NCBI GenBank assembly: GCA_009773455.1
Contig: WSXU01000025.1
Coordinates: 2,685-45,528, forward strand
Direction: 5' to 3'
Source of the DNA: Bacteroidota bacterium
GTDB taxonomy: Bacteria; Bacteroidota; Bacteroidia; Bacteroidales; Lentimicrobiaceae
DNA length: 42,844 nt
The position numbers and the translations under genes were made by a program. Below the pieces are notes generated by a model. That model did no database searches, was not told the DNA's origin, and was given only the letters and a program-made list of their open reading frames with translations. Shown one piece after another: positions 19,240 through 40,186 of this stretch (position 1 is its first letter; the number at the start of each line of letters is the position of its first letter).

Positions 19240-20280
19240 ATGATTGAGCCAGTTAAAGCAAACGACATTTTTTCTCTGAAAGCAGCCATGATGCTGGTAG
19301 ATGTGAGGTCACCGGCCGAGTTCCTTCAGGGGCATATACCGGGGGCTGTCAATATTCCGTTGTTTTCTGACAGTGAAAGGGCCGAGGTAGGAACCCGTTA
19401 CAAGCAGGCAGGCAGAGATGCAGCACTGCTTATCGGTCTTGATTTTGTCGGAGTGAAGATGGCTGGGTTCGTGAAGAAACTTCATGCCCTCTGCCGGGGA
19501 AACAGCAGGGAAGTTGCTGTTTATTGCTGGAGAGGGGGAATGCGCAGCGCTTCCATGGCCTGGTTGTTCAGCACGGCTGGATACAGGGTCAGTTTGCTCG
19601 AAGGAGGGTATAAGGCATACCGTTCTTATATCAGGGAAGCATCTGGCAAAAGTGTTCCGATGATTGTGCTCGGTGGAATGACCGGGTCGGGGAAGACTGA
19701 AATTCTTCTTGAACTCAAAAAATCAGGTGAACGGGTGATAGATCTGGAACATCTGGCTAGTAACAAAGGATCTGTTTTTGGTTATCTCGGACAGCCTGAA
19801 CAACCTACCAATGAGCAGTTTGAGAATAATCTGGCTGATGCATGGATTTTGCCGGGGGCTTCCGGACCTGTCTGGATTGAAGATGAAAGCCGCTCGATCG
19901 GAGCAGTTAGTCTGCCCGGACCATTCTTTGACAAGATGAAACAGCAGCCTATGGTATTGCTTCACGTGCCTGTAGAAAACAGGGTCGAACGCCTGATTAA
20001 GGAATATGCAGGATTTGATAAGTCATCGTTGACTGATGCACTCATGAAGATAGCCCAACCTATGGGAGGGCAGGGGGTGCTGGAAGCCGTTAAATCTATT
20101 GAGGAAAATAACTTTGCTCCGGCCATCAGGCTGGTGCTGGGTTATTACGATAAAATGTATTTAAGGGCTCTGGCAAAATTCAGCAACAGGGAAATCATTC
20201 AGATTGAATCTACAACCGGTGACGCGGCGGCAAATGCAGCATTGATCCTGAAACATATAAACGGGAATGCAGTCACATAG
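19240..20280 (+). CDS. selU: tRNA 2-selenouridine synthase
   Basis: SelU (also called MnmH or YbbB) converts 2-thiouridine at the wobble position of certain tRNAs to 2-selenouridine through a geranylated intermediate, using selenophosphate. The 346-residue product has both family domains: an N-terminal rhodanese domain with VDVRSPAEFLQGHIPGAVN and the active-site Cys96 in VYCWRGGMRS, then a P-loop domain with GGMTGSGKT at residues 145-153. The start at 19240 gives MIEPVKANDIF, close to the usual N-terminus. It lies 72 bases after the helicase gene and 123 bases before the lyase-SelD fusion gene, which would supply its selenophosphate donor; this is strong functional context. Confidence 0.95.
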   Translation: MIEPVKANDIFSLKAAMMLVDVRSPAEFLQGHIPGAVNIPLFSDSERAEVGTRYKQAGRDAALLIGLDFVGVKMAGFVKKLHALCRGNSREVAVYCWRGGMRSASMAWLFSTAGYRVSLLEGGYKAYRSYIREASGKSVPMIVLGGMTGSGKTEILLELKKSGERVIDLEHLASNKGSVFGYLGQPEQPTNEQFENNLADAWILPGASGPVWIEDESRSIGAVSLPGPFFDKMKQQPMVLLHVPVENRVERLIKEYAGFDKSSLTDALMKIAQPMGGQGVLEAVKSIEENNFAPAIRLVLGYYDKMYLRALAKFSNREIIQIESTTGDAAANAALILKHINGNAVT

Positions 20281-20403: not shown

Positions 20404-22605
20404 ATGAACCAGATATACCTCGATTACAATGCAACAACGCCTATTGATCCTGAAGTTGCAGCTGAAATGCGACCGTTTCTTGATGAATACTTCGGGAATC
20501 CGTCGAGCAGCCATGGATATGGCCTTAAAACCCGTATCGCTGTCGAAAAGGCAAGATCCAGGGTTGCAGCCATGATCAACTGCCGTCCGCAGGAGATTGT
20601 TTTTACCAGTGGCGGAACAGAATCGAATAATATGGCTATAAAGGGAGCTGCTTACGCCATGCGCCGGCACGGAAACCACATCATAGTCTCTGCAATAGAG
20701 CATCCTGCCGTGGCAGAGGTAACCCGTTTTCTCGAAACACAGGGATTTGAGATCACCATATTGCCTGTTGATAAATATGGCTTGGTTGATCCCGACAGGG
20801 TGGTAAAAGCCCTGAGGCCTGAAACCATCCTGATTTCGGTGATGCATGCCAACAATGAAGTGGGGACGATTCAGCCGGTTGCAGCCATTGCCGATATTGC
20901 CCGTCGTCACGGAGCGCTGATGCACACCGATGCGGCACAGTCGCTGGGGAAGATTCCTGTTGATGTCAGGGATCTGGATGTTGACCTGCTCTCAATTGCC
21001 GGTCACAAGTTATATGCACCCAAAGGCATCGGTGTTTTGTATATCCGCCACGGCGTAAAGATTGAAAAACTGATGCATGGCGCCGATCATGAACAAAACC
21101 TCAGGGCAGGAACTGAGAACGTACTTGAGATTGTGGGTCTCGGCAAAGCCTGTGAAATTGCCGGGCGGGAACTGGAGAACAATATCATTCACCTTGCTCA
21201 GATGCGTAGTCGTTTGCTCAAGGGGTTGACTGATCGCCTGGGCAATCTCAGGATCAACGGTCATCCTTCAAGGCATCTGCCCAATACCCTTTCCATTGGT
21301 TTCGAAAACCTGAATGCGGTAAGCCTGCTGCAGGCCATGGAAGGGGTTGCAGCTTCGGCTGGTGCAGCCTGTCATACAGGAACAACCGGCGATTCATCCG
21401 TACTGGGTGCAATGAAAGTGCCACCAGCCTATTCGCAGGGCACCATCCGTTTCTCAGCCGGAAAATATACAACCAGTGAAGAGATTGATCAGGCTGTGGA
21501 GATTATTTCATCTGCCGTAAAATCGCTTCAACCGGAACCTGCCGGGGATTTTTCAAAACCGGAAGGAAATGAAACGGTCAAACTGACCAGATTTACCCAT
21601 GGCCTGGGCTGTGCCTGTAAAATGAGGCCTGCCGATCTGGAAACGGTACTTGCCCATATGCCTGTGATAAACAATCCAAATGTTCTGGTTGGTGCCGATA
21701 AACGTGACGATGCAGCAGTTTACCGCCTCAGCAGTGAAATGGCTTTGGTTCAGACAGTAGATTTCTTCACACCTGTGGTAGATGATCCTTACACTTTCGG
21801 AGCGATCGCCGCGGCAAATTCGCTCAGCGATATTTACGCCATGGGTGCAACGCCCCTGTTTGCGTTGAACATTGCTGCTTTCCCGGTCAGCCGACTTCCG
21901 CTCGAAGTGCTTGAATCCATTCTGAAGGGTGCTTCAGATAAGGCAACCGAAGCCGGTATTCCGATTCTTGGCGGCCATTCTATCGAAGATACGGAACCAA
22001 AATTCGGGATGGTGGTAAGCGGACTTGTTCATCCTGACAAGGTATTATCCAATGCAGGAGCAAAGCCCGGGGATGTTCTGGTATTAACAAAGCCTGTTGG
22101 CACCGGGATTATTTCTACAGCAGCCAAGCGGGGAATTGCTGAGGAGCCTGGCATCAGTGCTGCTATAACTTCTATGCTGCAACTGAATAAGGGGGCGGCT
22201 GAACTTATGGGAAACCGAAAGGTTAATGCCTGTACCGATGTAACAGGTTTCGGGCTTATTGGTCACCTGCACGAGCTTACGGCTGCATCAGGAGTTACTG
22301 CAGAGATAAGTTTCGGAAATATTCCGTTTCTGGACGGTGCCCAGCAACTTGCTGCAGCAGGGGCGGTACCGGGCGGAACCATTGCCAATGCTGATTTTGC
22401 CAGGGAATTTACTGATTTCGGAGATTTCTCACTGACTGATATATACCTTGTGTGCGATGCACAAACCTCCGGGGGGCTGCTGATCAGCCTGCCGGTTGCT
22501 GAAGCTGAATTATTGATTAAAGGATTGGAAGAAGCGGGACTGATGGGAGTCGTTATAGGATCCGTCACAGGAAAGGGCAATGGACAAATCGAGCTGGTTG
22601 CCTGA
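20404..22605 (+). CDS. selD: Fusion of selenocysteine lyase/cysteine desulfurase-like domain with selenophosphate synthetase
   Basis: A 733-residue two-enzyme protein. Residues 1 to about 375 are a class V PLP aminotransferase-fold NifS-like enzyme: YLDYNATTPI at 5, FTSGGTESNN at 67, HTDAAQS at 174, PLP lysine Lys202 in AGHKLYAPKG, and catalytic Cys323 in ASAGAACHTG. The cysteine loop (GAACH) looks more like animal selenocysteine lyase than IscS (GSACTS). A linker of about 20 residues, rich in Pro, Ser and Glu, leads into SelD from about 393: THGLGCACKM with Cys403 and Lys406 in place of E. coli Cys17 and Lys20, GADKRDDAAVY, TVDFFTPVVDD and TDVTGFGLIGH. Cys403 is encoded by TGT, so it is not a selenocysteine. 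The frame is continuous, with no stop or overlap, so a real fusion rather than two genes. It would release selenium and pass it directly to selenophosphate synthesis, feeding SelU encoded just upstream. Confidence 0.93.
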   Translation: MNQIYLDYNATTPIDPEVAAEMRPFLDEYFGNPSSSHGYGLKTRIAVEKARSRVAAMINCRPQEIVFTSGGTESNNMAIKGAAYAMRRHGNHIIVSAIEHPAVAEVTRFLETQGFEITILPVDKYGLVDPDRVVKALRPETILISVMHANNEVGTIQPVAAIADIARRHGALMHTDAAQSLGKIPVDVRDLDVDLLSIAGHKLYAPKGIGVLYIRHGVKIEKLMHGADHEQNLRAGTENVLEIVGLGKACEIAGRELENNIIHLAQMRSRLLKGLTDRLGNLRINGHPSRHLPNTLSIGFENLNAVSLLQAMEGVAASAGAACHTGTTGDSSVLGAMKVPPAYSQGTIRFSAGKYTTSEEIDQAVEIISSAVKSLQPEPAGDFSKPEGNETVKLTRFTHGLGCACKMRPADLETVLAHMPVINNPNVLVGADKRDDAAVYRLSSEMALVQTVDFFTPVVDDPYTFGAIAAANSLSDIYAMGATPLFALNIAAFPVSRLPLEVLESILKGASDKATEAGIPILGGHSIEDTEPKFGMVVSGLVHPDKVLSNAGAKPGDVLVLTKPVGTGIISTAAKRGIAEEPGISAAITSMLQLNKGAAELMGNRKVNACTDVTGFGLIGHLHELTAASGVTAEISFGNIPFLDGAQQLAAAGAVPGGTIANADFAREFTDFGDFSLTDIYLVCDAQTSGGLLISLPVAEAELLIKGLEEAGLMGVVIGSVTGKGNGQIELVA

Positions 22606-23028: not shown

Positions 23029-25266
23029 TCAGGGATGAACTGCCCCAACAAAGGCACTTCCGTTATTATCAACAATGGTAACATCGCCGGTATCCACACT
23101 GCCATCACCGTTGATATCCGTAACCACATATCCTGAAGCAAAGGCTGAGGCATCGTTGTCGATGGGGGTCATATCCCCTGTATCTACAGACCCGTCCTGA
23201 TTGGCGTCACCTCCGTAAAGACAATATTTTACACCCTTTAAGATCGAATTGTTACCGTAAACTTTTGCAGGGGAATCTGAAAAATTGTAATTTATGGTAC
23301 TTCCACTGAATGAAACAGGCGTGGATGACCAGGATTCGATACTGTTCCTGTGGTTGACAATCAGGTAATAGCTTCCAGATAATGCTGATGGAAAACCAAC
23401 TGTGCAGGTTCCGTTCTGATTCAGATCTGTGTTGCCGGAGGTTGCTACAATGGCATAGGGCGGTGCTGCCTGAGCCAGGCTGATGTTGATCTGATCAGCC
23501 ACAGTTCCGGGGAAATGGGGGCCGTATTCATCACCTGCTTTTCGCATCTGCTGTGTTGCCGGATCAAACAATCCTTCAAGCATCAGGGTAAGATTCAATA
23601 TTTTCTGCGCCTGGGGATTGATGACATTTACTGTGTAATCTTCAGTTTCTCCCCAATCAACAGGTCCGCAGGGGACAATTTCTCCGGTATATAACAACCT
23701 TACCCGGAGCCTGGTCGGCCCGTTTAACGCATCTGCAGGAGGCGTGATTGTGCCGGAAAGGGAACTTTGGCTCATGGGGAAATATTCTCCGGTATCATCG
23801 AAATCAAGATCCTGGTTCCAGTCGACCCAGGCACCACACTGATCACCGGTATACCATGGGCTGGTTGTAACTGAAATCGGATAACCCGTGCCTGCAGTAA
23901 TAGTGGTGGTGATTCCGGTGAAATCCGAATACCCGTTTGTGCCGCACGATGATGAATTGTTAATGGTATTGAAGTTCAATGTGCCGATGTATTCGTCACA
24001 AGTTGCACTTGCCTCACAGTAATCAGGATCTTCAACGGTGATGTACCCCGGTTTGGTTTCTGTGTCGCTTCCATTGGCATTTGTTGCAACCAGGGTAACG
24101 GCAAATGTTCCGGGAGAGTTGTAGGTAACAACCGGGTTCTCAAGTGAAGAAGCAGAAGGAGTGCCACCTTCGAATGTCCATTGCCAACTGGTAGGATTGC
24201 CTGCTGAGATATCAGAGAAAGTAACACTTTCGCCTGTCAGGATTGAAGAAGGATTGCCCGAAAAATTGGCAATCGGTGGTGCGCTGGCGGCATACAACTG
24301 CAATACGGTGACTCCCCATTGTGCCATTCCGGCATATTCACCGCCCCATACCATGGAATGGTCCAGGTAATCCCAGGTGTCGTGCAGGTAGACAATACTG
24401 CCGGTTTCATCGTACCCGTAGCCAAGCATTGTATGTCCTGATACCTGGATCAGCACCGGTCTGCCATTATCTATTTCATTCATGTACTGTGCAAATGTGA
24501 ATCCCAGTGTATTTCCGCCGTTACCGTAAATCAGCTGGGTGTAATTCTGAACAACAGTTATTCCGCGTGATTCGTAAAAAAGCCGCATGCCATGGCATCC
24601 ATCGCGGCCTGAAGGTTCCGAACCACTGTAATCATAAATCGGACTGCCATCTCCGTAATAATAAAAAGTAGTGGATCCGTCCGAACTCCCTACAGCCGAC
24701 TGGTTGGTTCCCATATAGTCGGCCAGACAGTCACCATGGGTGTGCTGGGCCCATCCATTGATAATGTATGGATCAGGATCCGGACTGTTGTATAAAGTCC
24801 AATAATCATCCACATGTCCCCTGTTTGTGCGTCCGTCAAGATTCAGCATGGTGGCACTAAGCGGGCACAGGTCGCGTGTTTCTCCATTAATGACAGTGGA
24901 TCCCCAGCTGCTGTTGTTCATTGGCATCACGCCTCCGTTGGTGGGGCCGGTATAAGCAGAAGGATAACCACTGTTATCATAAAAACCTGCACCCATGGAG
25001 GCTGCGGTGGGTGAGCAACCGAATGACCAGCTGAATGCCGGAACATTTGCCAGTACAACCGCACTTCCTGATAAAGTGGCCTCAGGTGCCCTGTAACCTG
25101 CCGGTGGTTTGACCGGAGTCGTTACCCTGATGATTTCCCGTCCGCTTTCGTCATAAGTCCGGCCAGTTATATACCGTTCAACTGTGACGGGGCCGGTTTG
25201 TGCAAAACCGCAGATAGCACCTGCAATGAGAATGGCTGCCAGTAGTAAGTGTCTTCTGTATTTCAT
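23029..25266 (-). CDS. Secreted C39-like cysteine peptidase with PKD, GEVED and dockerin-like modules
   Basis: A 745-residue exported protein. Signal peptide 1-22 (cut near GFAQ). Residues about 60-325 look like a papain-fold C39-type peptidase: Cys84 in SFGCSPTAASM, His278 in SGHTMLGYGY and Asp296 in LHDTWDY would be the catalytic triad. A PKD domain follows (about 332-412, with WQWTFEGG and VTYNSPGTFAVTL), then a GEVED-type domain (about 415-550, CGAWVDWNQDLDFDD and GETEDYTV). The last ~190 residues are a module shared with two other proteins here, holding NHRNSIESW and a pair of calcium loops (DANQDGSVDTGD and DINGDGSVDTGD), ending in Pro. It is a paralogue of the next gene, 412 bases away. 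Substrate unknown. The catalytic assignment rests on motif spacing. Confidence 0.85.
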   Translation of the reverse strand: MKYRRHLLLAAILIAGAICGFAQTGPVTVERYITGRTYDESGREIIRVTTPVKPPAGYRAPEATLSGSAVVLANVPAFSWSFGCSPTAASMGAGFYDNSGYPSAYTGPTNGGVMPMNNSSWGSTVINGETRDLCPLSATMLNLDGRTNRGHVDDYWTLYNSPDPDPYIINGWAQHTHGDCLADYMGTNQSAVGSSDGSTTFYYYGDGSPIYDYSGSEPSGRDGCHGMRLFYESRGITVVQNYTQLIYGNGGNTLGFTFAQYMNEIDNGRPVLIQVSGHTMLGYGYDETGSIVYLHDTWDYLDHSMVWGGEYAGMAQWGVTVLQLYAASAPPIANFSGNPSSILTGESVTFSDISAGNPTSWQWTFEGGTPSASSLENPVVTYNSPGTFAVTLVATNANGSDTETKPGYITVEDPDYCEASATCDEYIGTLNFNTINNSSSCGTNGYSDFTGITTTITAGTGYPISVTTSPWYTGDQCGAWVDWNQDLDFDDTGEYFPMSQSSLSGTITPPADALNGPTRLRVRLLYTGEIVPCGPVDWGETEDYTVNVINPQAQKILNLTLMLEGLFDPATQQMRKAGDEYGPHFPGTVADQINISLAQAAPPYAIVATSGNTDLNQNGTCTVGFPSALSGSYYLIVNHRNSIESWSSTPVSFSGSTINYNFSDSPAKVYGNNSILKGVKYCLYGGDANQDGSVDTGDMTPIDNDASAFASGYVVTDINGDGSVDTGDVTIVDNNGSAFVGAVHP

Positions 25267-25678: not shown

Positions 25679-28600
25679 TTATGGCTTTTTACTTGTAATA
25701 AATGAATTGGAATTATTGTCGAGAATAGATATATCCCCGGTATCCACTACTCCGTCTCCGGAAAGATCGGTCGGAACATAGCCTGTTGTAAATTCAGAAG
25801 CGTCGTTATCAACCATTGTCATATCGCCTGAATCGATGGTGCTATCAAGGTTAACATCTCCAGAAAAGAGGCACCATTTATCGCCAATGAGTTTCAGGTT
25901 ATTGCCGTATGCCTTTGACACACTGTCGGTAAAATCGTAGGTAACATAGTCGCCGGTGAAAATCAGGGGAACAGCCGACCAGGTTTCGATGCTGTTACGA
26001 TGAGAAAGGACAATATAATAGTCCCCGTCAAATGAAAGTGGCTTATAGAATTTCAGGGTGCCGTCCTGATGCAGTGGAACCATGCCTATGGTGTCCATGA
26101 CACCGTAAGGAGCAACGGGTGATGCCAGCATAATGCAGATCAGATCCGATACTGACCCGGGGAACTGATCACCGGTTTCACCTTTGGCTTTTCGCATCGA
26201 TGTCTGATTTTCTTCCAGAAGGCTTTCGAGGTAGAGGTTCAGTTTTATGGTTTTTAATTCCGGACCGACAGATCCGCTGATATAAAAATTTCCGGCCGGG
26301 ACATCGTTCATCGGATGATACCAGGTATCCTCCCAGCCACAGGCGGTAGAATCAAATCCGATGCATGTGTATCCGTGTGCATAGTTAAAAACCAGGTCGA
26401 AGAGTTTGCCGTTATCCGGTATGCTCCTGGGATTCTCATTTCCATCGAGATAGAGGCTGAGGTTTGCAATATCTTCTGTAACCAGATATTCATTCCCTTC
26501 AATCCACCACCAGTCCAGCTCCGGGTGAATGTTTTCAATGCCGGAATATGTCAGGACTTTGGGGTCGTAGATAAGGTTCAGGTTACCAAACTGGATATTT
26601 GTAAAATCACTGGCCGTTATGGGTATCCTGATGAGGGTATCGGCCAGGGAGACAATATTCGCGGCATTAATCACAGGTGCATTTGCAGGTGGTGGAATGT
26701 ATTCAGTGGCATGTAGTGTGACAATCTGTGTGGCAGCTCCCGGACAACTGTTGTAGATGTATTCATATTCACTTGTGGTCCATGAAAAGCAGAATTTTAC
26801 ATAAACGGAAGTTTCAGGTATGGAATCGTTTAACGGTGGAATGGAAAGGGAGTAGGTAAAACCGTGATCCGGGAAGAACGAAATCTGCATATCAGGAGAT
26901 GCGGTAATGAACAAGGAAGAGCTCAGGTTGCAGGCAGAAACTGTGTAAGGCAGGGGATCGGAACAATCGAACCGGATAACGCCTCCAAAGTCGAGAGAGT
27001 CAGGTGTAACCGTAATTGTGGGTTTGAGCAGATGAACGGTGTAATCTTCTGTTTCACCCGGACCAGCATAACCACAGGGTATCAATTCGCCGTACTTTAT
27101 TACCCTGACTCTCATCCTGAAAAGGCTGTCGGCCATTGCACCGAGGGGGGCAGATAAGTTTCCCGAAAACCGGTTGCTGTTTGATAAGGCCGGAATCTGC
27201 GTAAATTCACCCTGATCGGTAAAATCATTGTCACGGTTCCAGTCAAGCCATACCCCGCATTTTTCGTCAGGAAGTATTATGCTGTCATACAGGATATCGA
27301 TGGTATATTGTTTACCGGGAACGAGGGAAGCGGTCATCGAAGTATAGTCAGCGTATCCGTTGATTCCGCAGGTATTGTTCGGATTATTGATTTCGCCCAG
27401 ATTTATTCCTGCGATAAAATCACTGCACTCTCCGGAGGCGAAACAGTGTCTCACAGCGATATAACCTGTCCTTATTTCGGTATCATATCCTATGCTGTTG
27501 GTGGCTACCAGGGTAACTGAATAAATTCCCGGAACATTATAGGTCACAACAGGATTCTGATCGGTTGAAACAGATGGATTGCCTCCTTCAAAAGTCCATT
27601 GCCAGGAGGAGGGAGAGCCTGTTGATGTATCCGTGAATTCAATGCTCTGACCCGGATCCACCTGCCTTTGATTTACTGTAAACATAGCAACCGGAGGTGG
27701 TGTGTCAGATTGAAGCCTGATTACAGTTACCCCGAAATGCTGACGTCCGGCATATCTGCCGGCCCAGGTCATAGAATGCATGCTGTAATCCCAGGTATCG
27801 TGAAGGTACACCTGTTGTCCGGCTAAATCATAACCGTATCCCAGCATGGTATGGCCTGCAATGTGGATGAGTACCGGCCGGCCATTGTCAATTTCTTCAA
27901 CATACTGTTCAAATGTAAAACCGATGGTATTCCCGTTATATCCCATAATCATCTGGGAGTAATTTTCAACGATCTGATATCCGCGTGATTCATAAAACAG
28001 TTTCAAACCATGGCACCCGTCTCTGAAGTCAGGCTCCAGTAAGGTGAAATCAAACAACGGGCTTCCATCCGTGTACAGGAAGAAGGTGGAAGCTCCGTCG
28101 GGATTGCCATAGGCCGATTGATTGCTTCCCATAAAATCACCGGTACAGCTATCGTGAGGATGTTGCAGCCAGTTGTTTACAATGTATGGATCAGGGTCGC
28201 CGTTTTCATAATAATTCCAGTAATCGTCGGCATGCCCCCGGGTTACCCTGCCGTCGAGACCCTGCCGTGTCGCACTGACCGGACATTGGGAAAGTGTCTG
28301 ACCATTGATGACCACTGTGCCCCATATGGTGTTATCCATTGGCATGAGACCCCCATTGGCAGGACCAACATAAATATTGTCGTAACCTGAATTGTCATAA
28401 TATCCTGCAGCCATGGAAGCGGCGGTGGGAGCGCAACCGAACGACCAGTCGTAGGCTGGTACATCGCCGATTATGACGGCCCCCGGGGTAAGTGTGGCAG
28501 CGGGTGATCTGTAACCGGCAGGAGGTTTACCGGGCACTGTAATCAGGGATAATTCGCGACCGGAACTATCATAAAATGGTCCGGAAAGGTAGTTGCTGAC

Positions 28601-28771
28601 TGCATCCTGATCATCCTGAGAAAAACAACTGAAACCCGGGAGCAGAAAAAATACCGTAAGAAAGAAGATAACCTGAATTTGATGCAACAATGAATAATCC
28701 CTATAGGTCACCGAGGGGGAAGTTGTCAGGCATTGACATCTGATGAAGTTGATCACACTGTGTGCAACCAT
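25679..28771 (-). CDS. Secreted C39-like cysteine peptidase with PKD, GEVED, cohesin-like and dockerin-like modules
   Basis: A 1030-residue exported protein, paralogous to its downstream neighbour. A hydrophobic signal segment at 34-49 follows an unusually long N-region; TTG codons at 28690 and 28687 could be the true start. Catalytic candidates are Cys113 in SFGCAPTAASM, His307 in AGHTMLGYGY and Asp325 in LHDTWDY. Then PKD (about 360-440), GEVED (about 441-582, CGVWLDWNRDNDFTD and GETEDYTV), a beta-sandwich (585-690) and, absent from the neighbour, a cohesin-like domain at about 698-835 (DTLIRIPITASDF, GNLNLIYDPKVLTYSGIE, IPDNGKLFDLVFNY). The C-terminal shared module (838-1030) has SHRNSIETW and two calcium loops (DVNLDSTIDSGD, DLSGDGVVDTGD), and ends KKP. 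Function of the cohesin-like part is inferred from pattern only. Confidence 0.85.
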   Translation of the reverse strand: MVAHSVINFIRCQCLTTSPSVTYRDYSLLHQIQVIFFLTVFFLLPGFSCFSQDDQDAVSNYLSGPFYDSSGRELSLITVPGKPPAGYRSPAATLTPGAVIIGDVPAYDWSFGCAPTAASMAAGYYDNSGYDNIYVGPANGGLMPMDNTIWGTVVINGQTLSQCPVSATRQGLDGRVTRGHADDYWNYYENGDPDPYIVNNWLQHPHDSCTGDFMGSNQSAYGNPDGASTFFLYTDGSPLFDFTLLEPDFRDGCHGLKLFYESRGYQIVENYSQMIMGYNGNTIGFTFEQYVEEIDNGRPVLIHIAGHTMLGYGYDLAGQQVYLHDTWDYSMHSMTWAGRYAGRQHFGVTVIRLQSDTPPPVAMFTVNQRQVDPGQSIEFTDTSTGSPSSWQWTFEGGNPSVSTDQNPVVTYNVPGIYSVTLVATNSIGYDTEIRTGYIAVRHCFASGECSDFIAGINLGEINNPNNTCGINGYADYTSMTASLVPGKQYTIDILYDSIILPDEKCGVWLDWNRDNDFTDQGEFTQIPALSNSNRFSGNLSAPLGAMADSLFRMRVRVIKYGELIPCGYAGPGETEDYTVHLLKPTITVTPDSLDFGGVIRFDCSDPLPYTVSACNLSSSLFITASPDMQISFFPDHGFTYSLSIPPLNDSIPETSVYVKFCFSWTTSEYEYIYNSCPGAATQIVTLHATEYIPPPANAPVINAANIVSLADTLIRIPITASDFTNIQFGNLNLIYDPKVLTYSGIENIHPELDWWWIEGNEYLVTEDIANLSLYLDGNENPRSIPDNGKLFDLVFNYAHGYTCIGFDSTACGWEDTWYHPMNDVPAGNFYISGSVGPELKTIKLNLYLESLLEENQTSMRKAKGETGDQFPGSVSDLICIMLASPVAPYGVMDTIGMVPLHQDGTLKFYKPLSFDGDYYIVLSHRNSIETWSAVPLIFTGDYVTYDFTDSVSKAYGNNLKLIGDKWCLFSGDVNLDSTIDSGDMTMVDNDASEFTTGYVPTDLSGDGVVDTGDISILDNNSNSFITSKKP

Positions 28772-36544: not shown

Positions 36545-39500
36545 TTATGGCAGAGATGCTCCCACAAATCCGAACTGGTTGTTGTCGATGATGGTGCCGT
36601 CACCACTGTCAACACTACCGTTTCCGTCAACATCTGAGAGGACATAACCCGCAACAAAGTTAAACTGGTCGTTGTCGAACGGGGTAACGTCACCACCGTC
36701 AACAGCTCCGTCCTGATTGATATCACCACCATAGATGGCATAACCCATATCGGCCATCTGCAACAGATTTCCACCGTAAATCTCAGCAGGATCACCAAAA
36801 CTCTGAATAATGGTGGTTCCGGCGAAAGATACTGCGTTGGCTGTGGTTGTTTCGATGGAATTTCGATGCTTAACCGTGATGCGGTAGTCGCCGCTGAGTG
36901 TTACAGGAATACCGGTTACAGTAGCTGTTCCGGTTGTGCTCAGCTGAACAAGGGAACTGTATTCAATCGTTGCATAGTTGGTGGCATCGTGCAACTCAAC
37001 GGCAATCATATCGGCTACGCCCGGATCAAACTGAGGTCCAACTTCATTGAATGCCTGATTCATAAAACCGCCTCCGGCATAGAGCCCTTCGAGCATAACA
37101 TTGTTCAGTGTCAGCGTTTTATCGTTTGCATTTATGGTCAGCACCCCTGAGATGTTTGTTGTTCCGTCCCAGAAACCTCCGTTAAAGCCGCCATAAACAA
37201 AAGGCATGTTGCCAAACCGGAATCGGCTGACATAATAATAGGTTCCTTCAGCCGCAATAGCGCTTCCAAGATCCGCTTTGAACTCGTCGTTAGCATAACC
37301 TTGTCCGAAGAAAGGTGCAGGAATCCAGTTTGTCCATGTGTTTGGATCAGTATTGTCAGAACTATAACCGATCCAGGCCTGTAATCCATAAGTTCCGCCG
37401 GCATTTGCAGTAATCCCGTTGGGGATATAGGCCTGGGCGTAAACATCATAAGCGCCTCCAAGGGCAATGGAACCCGTTCCGGGCCATTGAAGATTTGCCC
37501 AATTTATGGAACCACCCCAGGTATCATTAAATGAAGTGGAAGTCGTTACTGCTGCTAAGCGGTTTGCGCCACCGGTATATTCACCATCGTCCCAGCCGGC
37601 ATTCTTGAAATATTTGTATTCGTAAGTTCCAGCATCTATCAGCAACGAATAAGTATAGACCAGGGTTGAGCCGACCTGTGCCATTATTAAACTTCCCGGG
37701 TCACCCGGAGTAATCCAGGAGGCACCGGGGAAATTTCCCGTGAGATACACCAGGTCAGTGCCGGGAGTAAATCCTTCGGCCGTGGACATATCAACGTTAA
37801 AGGTCACAGTGAAGCCCGAGGGAGTCGGAACAACAGCCAGTGTGCGTGGCATACCGGAACCACATGCTGTTGAAGGAGTTGCCGTGATATTGCCCGAGTC
37901 GCTTCCAACCGTTACAGTTACCTCGTTTGTAGTACCGCCTCCTGTTTGAACCCATCCTGACGGGAATGTCCATGCATAGGAAACGCCGGGATCATTAGTA
38001 ACGCTGTAGGTTTCACTGCTTCCTTCCATGGGATTTGTCGAACCTGCAATCGCACCCGGTTGGGCAGGCGGGTTGGTGTTAGGCATAACTACCATATACT
38101 GGTAAGGGCCAACACCATAAACATTTGATGGGGTTACAATAACAGTTCCCGGAATACTTCCGACTACTACAGTCAGTGTACTGGTATTTTGCCCTGATGT
38201 TATAGTCCAGCCAACAGGAGGTTGCCAGATATAGGTAACACCAGGAACATTGGTTACACTATAAGTTTGAGTTGAACCGATGCATGGTGCGGCCGAACCA
38301 CTGATAGCAGAGGGTTGTGATGGTGCAACAAACTGGGTTACATCAGCCTTGTATAACGAACGGGCAGCGATACCGGCAAAGAGATAATCGTTGTTGCCAA
38401 AAAGCGCACTGCTATAACGTCCCATAAAATTATATGGAAGCCCGGCACCGACATTGATCCATGTATTTCCTGCAGCGGATTTCATCTGAACGCTCCACAT
38501 AGTTTTGGCAAACAACTTGCCCGAAACAACCGCGAGGTTGGAAACCAAACTGTCGCCCATACCGACTTTTGTCCAGGTAACCCCATTGTCGGAGGATTCA
38601 TATACGCCGTCGCCTGTATAGGTAATCCCCGTGCCGACATACAATTTATTGTCCAATGTGGCCATACAAGTTATTCTTGCGCCACCATTCGTTGGCACTG
38701 TTCCTACTGCTGTAAACGGTTGTGTTCCGGAAACGGATCGGTAAACGGTTTGACTGCCACCCGCGAACCTATCCCCGTCTTTGATGCAATTATTGCTGCC
38801 CGCCAGTGTTAAATCTGTTGTCCAGGTTAACCCTTCATCATCGGAGTATACACCGATACTTAAATAAATCCTGGAATTCATGGTAAACATTTCATTTATC
38901 TGCTGGCCAACAACATTTTCTGCTGTTACAGAGGCCCATGTGACGCCAAAATCAGTCGAGCGGTACAGACTGTCATAATAGGCGGCAAACACCGTATTTC
39001 CTACACTTCCCATTGCCATTACATAATTTAACGAACCGGATTTTGTTATCAGATTCCCGTTTGCAGATTGCCAGGTGGTTCCATTGTCTGATGAACGGTA
39101 CACCCTGCCACTGTATGTGCCGGCAAAAAGGTAGGGACCGGCCTTAGTTGATTTCCAGACCGCATGCCCGGCCAGGTTGTTGTTGGTCTCGGTCCAGGTA
39201 AGGCCATTATCGGTGGTTTTGAAAATTCCGTCAAATCCGCCTGCGAATAAATTATTGCCGGACTGCAAGAAAACCGGGATCTCCATAATTGGCAAACCGG
39301 AAGTTGCCTGGGTCCATGTCGCTCCGTTATCCATAGATTTGTATACACCGTTCTTTTTTGTGGAGGTAAACACCGCGTTTTCGGTCGCATAGATGGCGCG
39401 CAGTTCCATCTCTGGCAGTCCCGTATTGGCTGCAACCCAGGTAATACCCTTATCTGTTGATTTGAATACACCCTGGTCATATGTAGATGCATAAAGAGTG

Positions 39501-40186
39501 CTTCCAAACTTTGTCATCCCTGTTATCCAGCCTGGAAAGGCGGATCCAGTAAGTGGAATTCCAGCGGTAGATGCTATCCAGTTTGTTCCATTGTTAACAG
39601 AACGGTACACCCCGGCGCGCGTGCCAAGAAATAAGGTATCACCGCTTGAGAAAAAGCATTTTACGGCACGCTGTAGTCCGGTATTTAAACCGGTTCTGGC
39701 CAATGTCCATGTAACACCATTATTGATAGAGCGATACGGGCCGGTGCCTGTCCCTGCAAATACTGAAGTACCAAAGGAATAAAAGCTGGTGATAATCACG
39801 GTGGGTCCTTGCGGCCAGGGTTGTGTCCATGTTAGTCCATTATCATCTGAGCGATAGATACCTCCGTCATAATATGTTACCCCTGTGTTGTCCTGATGCG
39901 CCTGTGTTGCAACGAACAGGACATCTCCATGGCTTCCGACTGTCTGAACAATTTTTCCCGGTATATTATCAATTACATTATTCCAGGTCTGGCCATTATC
40001 TGCCGAGGTCCATGCCCCGCCGGAAGAATACTCATTTTTAGCCCCTGCAAAAAGAAGGGTGGATGTGGCGGCGATGCTGGTAATATTGCCCGAATTGGGT
40101 CCGGACGAGGTAAAAGATTGAGCAATTCCCTGCCCGAAAAAGGAAAGCAGCATCAGGATTGTGAGAATAGTACGTGATTCTTTCAT
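36545..40186 (-). CDS. Large secreted Asp-box beta-propeller protein with PKD-like, starch-binding-like and dockerin-like modules
   Basis: A 1213-residue exported protein with signal peptide 1-23 (FFGQGIAQ). Residues about 25-610 carry around a dozen Asp-box repeats of the form SxDNGxTW (YRSDDNGLTW, FKSTDKGITW, YKSMDNGATW, YRSSDNGTTW), as in sialidase/BNR or sortilin-like propellers. Two PKD-like domains follow (about 617-775, GSTQTYSVTNVPGVTYIW), then a beta-sandwich like starch-binding or AMPK-type domains (about 790-885, VYLTGNFPGASW, GTYEYKYFKNAGWDDGEY) and another beta domain (890-1020). The last ~187 residues are the shared module: KHRNSIETT, calcium loops DINQDGAVDGGD and DVDGNGSVDSGD (dockerin-like, 1153-1213), ending in Pro. 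No catalytic residues are evident; binding or adhesion is the likelier role. Confidence 0.85.
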   Translation of the reverse strand: MKESRTILTILMLLSFFGQGIAQSFTSSGPNSGNITSIAATSTLLFAGAKNEYSSGGAWTSADNGQTWNNVIDNIPGKIVQTVGSHGDVLFVATQAHQDNTGVTYYDGGIYRSDDNGLTWTQPWPQGPTVIITSFYSFGTSVFAGTGTGPYRSINNGVTWTLARTGLNTGLQRAVKCFFSSGDTLFLGTRAGVYRSVNNGTNWIASTAGIPLTGSAFPGWITGMTKFGSTLYASTYDQGVFKSTDKGITWVAANTGLPEMELRAIYATENAVFTSTKKNGVYKSMDNGATWTQATSGLPIMEIPVFLQSGNNLFAGGFDGIFKTTDNGLTWTETNNNLAGHAVWKSTKAGPYLFAGTYSGRVYRSSDNGTTWQSANGNLITKSGSLNYVMAMGSVGNTVFAAYYDSLYRSTDFGVTWASVTAENVVGQQINEMFTMNSRIYLSIGVYSDDEGLTWTTDLTLAGSNNCIKDGDRFAGGSQTVYRSVSGTQPFTAVGTVPTNGGARITCMATLDNKLYVGTGITYTGDGVYESSDNGVTWTKVGMGDSLVSNLAVVSGKLFAKTMWSVQMKSAAGNTWINVGAGLPYNFMGRYSSALFGNNDYLFAGIAARSLYKADVTQFVAPSQPSAISGSAAPCIGSTQTYSVTNVPGVTYIWQPPVGWTITSGQNTSTLTVVVGSIPGTVIVTPSNVYGVGPYQYMVVMPNTNPPAQPGAIAGSTNPMEGSSETYSVTNDPGVSYAWTFPSGWVQTGGGTTNEVTVTVGSDSGNITATPSTACGSGMPRTLAVVPTPSGFTVTFNVDMSTAEGFTPGTDLVYLTGNFPGASWITPGDPGSLIMAQVGSTLVYTYSLLIDAGTYEYKYFKNAGWDDGEYTGGANRLAAVTTSTSFNDTWGGSINWANLQWPGTGSIALGGAYDVYAQAYIPNGITANAGGTYGLQAWIGYSSDNTDPNTWTNWIPAPFFGQGYANDEFKADLGSAIAAEGTYYYVSRFRFGNMPFVYGGFNGGFWDGTTNISGVLTINANDKTLTLNNVMLEGLYAGGGFMNQAFNEVGPQFDPGVADMIAVELHDATNYATIEYSSLVQLSTTGTATVTGIPVTLSGDYRITVKHRNSIETTTANAVSFAGTTIIQSFGDPAEIYGGNLLQMADMGYAIYGGDINQDGAVDGGDVTPFDNDQFNFVAGYVLSDVDGNGSVDSGDGTIIDNNQFGFVGASLP

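Follow-up and report, generated by a model that had tools for sequence, protein, structure and literature searches.

The 42,844-nucleotide stretch of Lentimicrobiaceae DNA analyzed here (hereafter, the window) includes a gene for a protein in which a PLP-dependent, NifS-like domain is joined to a complete selenophosphate synthetase (SelD) within one chain. This fusion is probably a bifunctional selenocysteine (Sec) lyase-selenophosphate synthetase, in which Cys323 of the N-terminal domain would hand selenium over to SelD and thereby feed the tRNA 2-selenouridine synthase (SelU) encoded next to it. We infer that Sec is the main substrate, that the transfer is direct and that SelU is the consumer; such an arrangement might also channel selenium and keep it separate from sulfur.

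Domain Architecture of the Fusion Protein

The fusion gene is a single open frame of 733 codons on the forward strand (20404-22605) that runs from ATG to a lone terminal stop. The preliminary description had claimed a continuous frame, and there is no inner stop between the domains; the short linker it described corresponds to about residues 377-388 (Table 1). The anatomy read at that stage, a NifS-like domain followed by a complete SelD with Lys202, Cys323, Cys403 and Lys406, is borne out by Pfam and NCBIfam matches and by residue conservation, the Pfam matches being Aminotran_5 (residues 4-363, 2.8e-81), AIRS (435-542) and AIRS_C (554-730). The C-terminal half is a SelD, with 386 bits for the NCBIfam selD model TIGR00476 (cut-off 125), and its nearest PDB entry is 3u0o (9.6e-77), which we take to be the E. 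coli SelD.

No NCBIfam equivalog is assigned to the N-terminal half. The best model is NifS (TIGR03402; 471 bits, under the cut-off of 531), the IscS equivalog gives 400 bits (cut-off 643), and SclA (NF040779), which we take to be a group II enzyme, gives 128 bits (cut-off 525), so that an assignment to the SclA type was dropped. IscS/NFS1 and NifS share the fold of this domain. Cysteine desulfurases (IscS, NFS1 and others) come top in the PDB search with this half, with rat and human selenocysteine lyase (SCLY) lower; Foldseek identity is highest to NFS1/IscS (42-44%) and amounts to 36-37% for SCLY. The PDB search with the Cys loop alone did not list SCLY. The AlphaFold model of the fusion has a pTM of 0.65, and its domain arrangement is not trusted; pLDDT falls below 50 at residues 322-328, 378-389 and 404-407. 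The low values at the Cys323 and Cys403 segments and in the linker fit with these being mobile parts in the model, which by itself would not prove transfer.

Table 1. Features of the fusion gene and of the adjacent selU gene (positions in the window)
Feature	Position	Strand	Basis
selU/mnmH, tRNA 2-selenouridine synthase	19240..20280	+	NF008750, 371 bits (cut-off 241); TIGR03167, 344 bits (cut-off 220)
PLP-dependent group-I NifS/SCLY-like N-terminal domain, residues 1-376	20404..21531	+	Aminotran_5, TIGR03402, Foldseek
Pro101, aligned with Asp146 of human SCLY	20704..20706	+	Alignment with SCLY PDB chains; 60/60 fusions
Ala199, aligned with Val256 of human SCLY	20998..21000	+	Ala in 59/60 fusions
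Lys202 in GHK motif	21007..21009	+	60/60 fusions
Cys loop S318-A-G-A-A-C323-H324	21355..21375	+	Identical in 59/60 fusions; same place as human SCLY C388-H389
Linker, predicted to be flexible, residues 377-388	21532..21567	+	pLDDT < 50 at 378-389; gap between Pfam domains
Complete SelD domain, residues 389-733	21568..22602	+	TIGR00476, 3u0o
SelD nucleophile segment Cys403-Ala-Cys405-Lys406	21610..21621	+	Alignment to 3u0o (E. coli Cys17, Lys20)

Elsewhere in the window, two neighboring, related proteins encoded on the reverse strand (23029-25266 and 25679-28771) contain Peptidase_C39-like, PKD and GEVED domains and, as judged by eye, C-terminal repeats of dockerin appearance. A protein of 1213 residues (36545-40186, reverse strand) combines Sortilin/VPS10-like and BNR repeat matches with PKD-like domains.

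Distribution of the Fusion

Full-length copies of the fusion are present in 16 of the 19 genomes of the same genus, which argues against an assembly artifact; of the other three, two (G009 and G002) have a gene that is truncated or divided by the end of a contig, and one (G003, 78% complete) gave no match. Across the order, 38 of the 198 sampled genomes carry the fusion, four of them in a shortened form (G009, G787, G812 and G836), and SelD scores over the cut-off in 92, so that about two in five SelD-bearing genomes of the order have the fused form. Several of the fusion-bearing genomes have a single SelD as well. The 80 loci listed, out of 556 confirmed in a scan of named genomes, include whole or nearly whole fusions from Bacteroidales, Saprospiraceae, Eisenbacteria, Zixiibacteriota, Calditrichaceae, Acidobacteriota, Chloroflexi, Cloacimonadota, Neomarinimicrobiota, Ignavibacteriaceae, Phycisphaerales, Caldisericaceae, Actinomycetota, KSB1, Myxococcota and Deltaproteobacteria. 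These affiliations come from record titles, which may be wrong for single metagenome bins, and the named set includes Bacteroidota loci, with at least two proteins common to the order set (L093 = L244 and L112 = L238).

Given this spread, it is extremely improbable that the window gene is the product of a frameshift, a misassembly or a chance join of two genes. Split or cut copies do occur, at contig ends (G002 and G009), in two frames (G871 and L234) and in Geotalea toluenoxydans (L150), but the joined frame recurs throughout the order and in named genomes of many phyla, with a mean column identity of 55% among the 39 members of alignment A2 (see below); with an intact frame and many intact relatives, an artifactual origin was rejected. 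In the Geotalea toluenoxydans locus (L150, 4989-7194), the NifS part is spread over two frames, and the SelD part starts past the place of Cys403. The open frames of single-domain SelDs that fall near the fused ones (L151-L153 and L155-L157) start just past the same place, as expected if it is occupied by Sec (UGA).

Selenium-Related Genomic Context

The selU gene is located 123 bases upstream of the fusion on the same strand. It directly precedes the fusion in all 16 loci of the genus with enough flank and in 9 of the 21 other loci of the order; in the named set, it is upstream in 4 of 35 fusion loci (among the matches listed), all four from Bacteroidota by title. Across 54 fusion loci, selU, found in 12, is the sole widely shared neighbor, the next families occurring in four loci at most. 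One locus from an Ignavibacteriaceae record (L105) has the gene order selA-selB-fusion.

SelA did not score over the cut-off in any of the 41 genomes of the set of relatives, the window's own genome included (E. coli served as the positive control), and no tRNA-Sec over the threshold was found in the own genome (95.4% complete) with stricter search filters. This genome thus fits the SeU trait without the Sec trait: SelD and SelU are found, and SelA and tRNA-Sec are not. Together with the adjacent selU, these observations suggest that selenium is probably used for tRNA 2-selenouridine only.

The fusion is also the only strong match of the NifS model in its genome (473 bits), the next one, with 164 bits, being a SufS. 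This finding would also suit a different reading, which we regard as unlikely. In this reading, the N-terminal domain would be a cysteine desulfurase of the ordinary kind, perhaps supplying sulfur for 2-thiouridine formation by MnmA, the step before SelU, and the fusion would serve only to co-regulate the sulfur-dependent and selenium-dependent steps in U34 modification. The nearer identity to IscS, the choice of NifS and IscS as the best NCBIfam models and the presence of MnmA over the cut-off here and in 38 of the 41 genomes of the set all agree with a desulfurase. However, MnmA is also over the cut-off in genomes of the order where the matches of the N-terminal domain are only weak and SufS-like (G019-G022, G025, G026, G033, G035, G036, G038 and G040), so that a group-I enzyme does not seem to be needed for MnmA; a dependence of MnmA thiolation on this domain was therefore dropped. 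Moreover, the fusion partner is SelD, not MnmA, and both the unfused relatives of the domain and, in other genomes, SclA-like enzymes are linked to SelD, as described below.

Iron-sulfur supply as the main job of the domain was dropped as well, because the genome encodes a SufS over the SufS cut-off. In the three cases examined, IscS and NifS are encoded beside Fe-S scaffold genes, whereas the window domain is encoded beside selU.

Active-Site Residues and Substrate Specificity

Conservation was assessed in two alignments, one of 22 rows (A1) and one of 39 (A2); they overlap only in the window protein and together hold 60 distinct fusions. Pro101, Lys202, Cys323-His324, Cys403, Cys405 and Lys406 are invariant in both (22/22 and 39/39), and Ala404 is found in 59 of the 60 fusions. 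His100, Asp176, Gln179, Lys202 and Arg349, presumably residues of the PLP/substrate site, with Lys202 presumably the PLP lysine, are kept in all 60. The sole exception in the Cys loop is one protein (L089) with Pro at position 319.

The likeness of this loop to that of animal SCLY, pointed out in the preliminary description, is confirmed in that SAGAACH is closer to the human SCLY sequence SVGAACH than to SSGSACT of the E. coli IscS loop (SSGSACTS). The window domain and mammalian SCLY also share the group-I fold and the GAACH motif (GASCH in rat), and His324 occupies the place of human H389 in all 60 fusions. The lyase-type specificity that had been derived from this likeness fares differently: Asp146 of human SCLY is replaced by Pro101 in all 60 fusions and Val256 by Ala199 in 59, Val being present only in L094, so that only H389 agrees. 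In the human enzyme, Asp146 is described as the residue responsible for Sec specificity; the D146K replacement was both necessary and sufficient for cysteine desulfurase activity, whereas V256S and H389T without D146K conferred none, the effect of H389T being slight (PMC3266270). Because the place of Asp146 holds Pro101, the loop likeness does not establish lyase specificity. Pro at this place is also seen in the Rhizobium tropici NifS, a protein with a cysteine desulfurase annotation, whereas Lys is present in E. coli IscS.

Three group-I NifS-like proteins from the same order (L058, 4950-6122; L059, 5548-6867; L060, 4898-6127) have Asp at the 146 place (EHDC) along with an ACS loop, and one of their genomes (G039) also has the fusion. 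They do not group with SCLY in an analysis of 107 of the 134 rows of an N-domain alignment that took one match per locus and required at least 330 query residues to be spanned; L058 and L059 are also among the rows of the 85-row tree described next.

Phylogeny of the N-Terminal and SelD Domains

Phylogenetic relationships were examined in an 85-row tree computed without the Cys-loop columns from rows hand-picked from about 181 (the 134 above and additional ones), with SCLY represented by two mammalian PDB chains only (human 3gzc and rat 3a9x). In this tree, SCLY is the sister group of 51 rows that include unfused relatives beside the fusions, apart from IscS and NifS, with an SH-aLRT value of 88 and a bootstrap of 98 that is not settled. 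Nearly all loops within the 51-row clade are of the ACH type (48), with one each of ACN, ACE and ACR. When the SufS outgroup is left out, the group with SCLY appears in 290 of the first 300 bootstraps without the loop and in 299 of 300 with it. SCLY sits on a long branch (1.8 changes per column), and AU tests reject neither a grouping of SCLY with IscS (p 0.265) nor its position outside the clade and IscS together (p 0.389). Thus, the check by phylogeny that had been suggested places the N-terminal domain outside IscS/NifS in the trees, whereas the sister relationship of SCLY to the clade, denoted the SAGAACH clade after its prevailing loop, is favored by these trees but not proven. The ACH loop alone is not diagnostic, because an Azospirillum enzyme that has it is placed with the IscS rows; in the enzyme of G901 and in the second copy of G778, the loop reads STGSACH.

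Fused SelD domains form a cluster of their own in the tree of this domain (7 changes versus 26 in shuffles), separated from two groups of single SelDs from the same order. Four of the proteins labeled as single in this tree (L143, L149, L150 and L234) are so only through contig ends or frame breaks.

Unfused Relatives and Other Lyase-Like Enzymes Near selD

Genomes with unfused relatives of the N-terminal domain mostly encode SelD, which scores over the cut-off in 23 of 27, a count that omits L113, L114 (cut at contig end), L145 and L147; the SelD gene contains an in-frame TGA in 18 of the 23. SelD over the cut-off was not found in the other four genomes, nor in G718 (Chloroflexota), and one of the relatives (L131), being located where its contig ends, could be a truncated fusion. 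Within Chloroflexota, SelD is present in 24 of the 25 genomes with ACH-loop enzymes (among the first 42 matches) versus 215 of 275 others (Fisher p 0.02), in a comparison that omits the center genome G457, chosen for having a member. The contrast is small because SelD occurs in 240 of the 301 genomes, and at least one member, L140, escaped the initial survey, in which its genome (G457) gave only a 45% match. Within the order, SelD is found in all three genomes that have only an unfused relative (two with SAGAACH and one with STGSACH) versus 50 of the 156 that have none (p 0.036). Both tests ignore relatedness, and each is weak singly.

The unfused relatives have no general shared neighborhood across 29 loci, although the surroundings are common to three loci from Marinifilaceae. 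One locus of G804 (L251, 3235-5574) contains selU and, after it, the gene of an unfused SAGAACH enzyme; the selD gene of this genome is part of a selA-selB cluster (L227).

Seven relatives from the order have an SclA-like enzyme near selD. The gene order is selU, SclA-like enzyme, selD in G028; the enzyme is encoded directly upstream of selD in G762, G829 and G929 and 0.8-2 kb upstream in G873, G882 and G893, with selB nearby in the latter two. All six of these enzymes that were scored (not G829) have TIGR01977 as the best model and SclA as the second; all are under the SclA cut-off and three are over that of TIGR01977. Among the fetched loci, such enzymes are seen directly upstream of selD in L055 (393-4470), L231, L232 and L233; for L232, the identification comes from BLAST alone. 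The presence of two distinct lyase-like branches beside the same partners argues that delivering selenium to SelD is their job. The selenium link proposed in the preliminary description stands on the directly upstream selU, on the co-occurrence of the unfused relatives with SelD and on the SclA-like enzymes beside selD.

Pairs of selU and selD with no lyase next to them are common in the order and were seen in eleven fetched loci, indicating that a lyase need not be fused or adjacent and that other routes are possible. On plasmid pGW6_1 of Methylocystis rosea (L162, 7647-11293), a standalone relative with an ACR loop is encoded with a DsrE-family gene on one side and methyltransferase genes on the other, near ArsR and MFS genes. 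Its nearest row in the tree comes from G718, in which SelD was not found over the cut-off, so that this subgroup may have another role.

Predicted Function

The assignment of the fusion as a lyase-synthetase is favored because the fusion is intact, the catalytic residues are present in all 60 proteins, selU is upstream, SelA is not found in the genomes of the set and SelD co-occurs with the unfused relatives. The SclA-like enzymes near selD, the unfused enzyme after selU in G804, the standing of the fusion as the sole strong NifS-model match of its genome, the sister placement of SCLY and the location of both cysteines on segments of low pLDDT point in the same direction. NifS-like enzymes reportedly can feed SelD, as is said of the work of Lacourciere from 1998. 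The same capacity is on record in a later report (Lacourciere 2000, cited in PMC4561486). In the predicted mechanism, PLP at Lys202 would bind Sec, and Cys323, on a mobile loop, would take up the selenium as a sulfoselenide while alanine leaves. The loop would then open, by analogy with human SCLY, for which open and closed forms were both observed (PMC3266270), and selenium would pass to the SelD site at Cys403/Lys406, the Cys403 segment of which also looks mobile. With ATP, SelD would produce selenophosphate, from which the adjacent SelU would put selenium into the wobble 2-thiouridine of tRNA.

Several observations weaken this assignment: the Pro at the Asp146 place, the identity nearer to IscS/NFS1, the AU tests, the ACH loop of the Azospirillum enzyme, the selU-selD pairs without a lyase, the modest share of listed named loci with selU, the genomes with unfused relatives but no SelD over the cut-off, G718 among them in addition to the four counted, and the pTM of the model. 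Furthermore, a genome without selenoproteins gives no clear source of Sec; uptake, or chance synthesis by cysteine synthase, can be offered as guesses. The lack of an obvious Sec source in a genome where SelA is not found also speaks for another, improbable scenario, in which the N-terminal domain is a selenium carrier: Cys323 would be loaded from reduced selenite (selenodiglutathione or selenide) as a sulfoselenide and would pass it on to SelD, with Sec cleavage being minor. The loop and linker, if mobile as modeled, would suit a carrier, and relatives with selU-selD and no adjacent lyase fit in as well, but a pure carrier would not need the PLP lysine and the other PLP/substrate-site residues, which are kept in every aligned fusion.

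Relationship to Known Systems and Implications

The preliminary description allowed that fusions of this type might already have been noted in genome surveys, and they are indeed in print. A NifS-SelD fusion was reported in 2008 from one bacterial genome, Geobacter sp. FRC-32 (PMC2398784), and, in 2015, two bacterial instances were listed along with those of two protists, Acanthamoeba and Naegleria (PMC4561486). As in the window protein, the NifS-like domain of the Geobacter, Acanthamoeba and Naegleria fusions is N-terminal to SelD within one chain, and the portions of these sources consulted describe it only as NifS-like or as Cys sulfinate desulfinase (COG1104). The Geobacter SelD carries Sec (CxxU) where the window SelD has Cys, and the window genome, with selU adjacent and no SelA found, differs from the published fusions as far as these are described. 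The Ndh-SelD fusions (PMC2398784) also have an N-terminal extension of SelD, but the added domain is NADH dehydrogenase-like and not a PLP enzyme. Mammalian SCLY is not fused, and SclA of Enterococcus faecalis, the subject of PMC13188914, belongs to another branch of the fold than the window domain. Thus, the fusion type is known, and its frequency and its pairing with selU without SelA appear to be new, as far as the open-licence literature shows; the same holds for the SAGAACH clade, including unfused members that accompany SelD, and for its favored kinship with SCLY.

In reviews, a search for a bacterial SCLY homologue is said to have 'ended unsuccessfully' (PMC6770646), the specific Sec lyase is described as mainly animal and absent in bacteria and archaea (PMC9312934), and bacterial Sec lyase is called ambiguous, the Enterococcus SclA being named as a Sec-preferring candidate (PMC13188914). 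Against this background, the SAGAACH enzymes are candidate bacterial Sec lyases in many phyla. Only tentatively can it be suggested that these enzymes, fused or not, are bacterial Sec lyases that have long been missed, and that they are the sister group of animal SCLY or the group from which it came. Animal SCLY perhaps derives from the NifS portion of a bacterial NifS-SelD fusion acquired by eukaryotes, with Asp146 gained later and leading to strict Sec specificity; in bacteria whose only use of selenium is in tRNA, the fusion would be a closed Sec-to-selenouridine line. For the protist NifS-SPS genes, such an entry into eukaryotes is the published view (PMC4561486).

The natural Pro at the 146 place offers a test of the rule that Asp at this position makes Sec specificity. 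The hand-over of selenium from SCLY to the synthetase is listed among unresolved questions (PMC6770646); in the fusion, the two partners form a natural covalent pair, so that direct selenium hand-over becomes testable in one purified protein.
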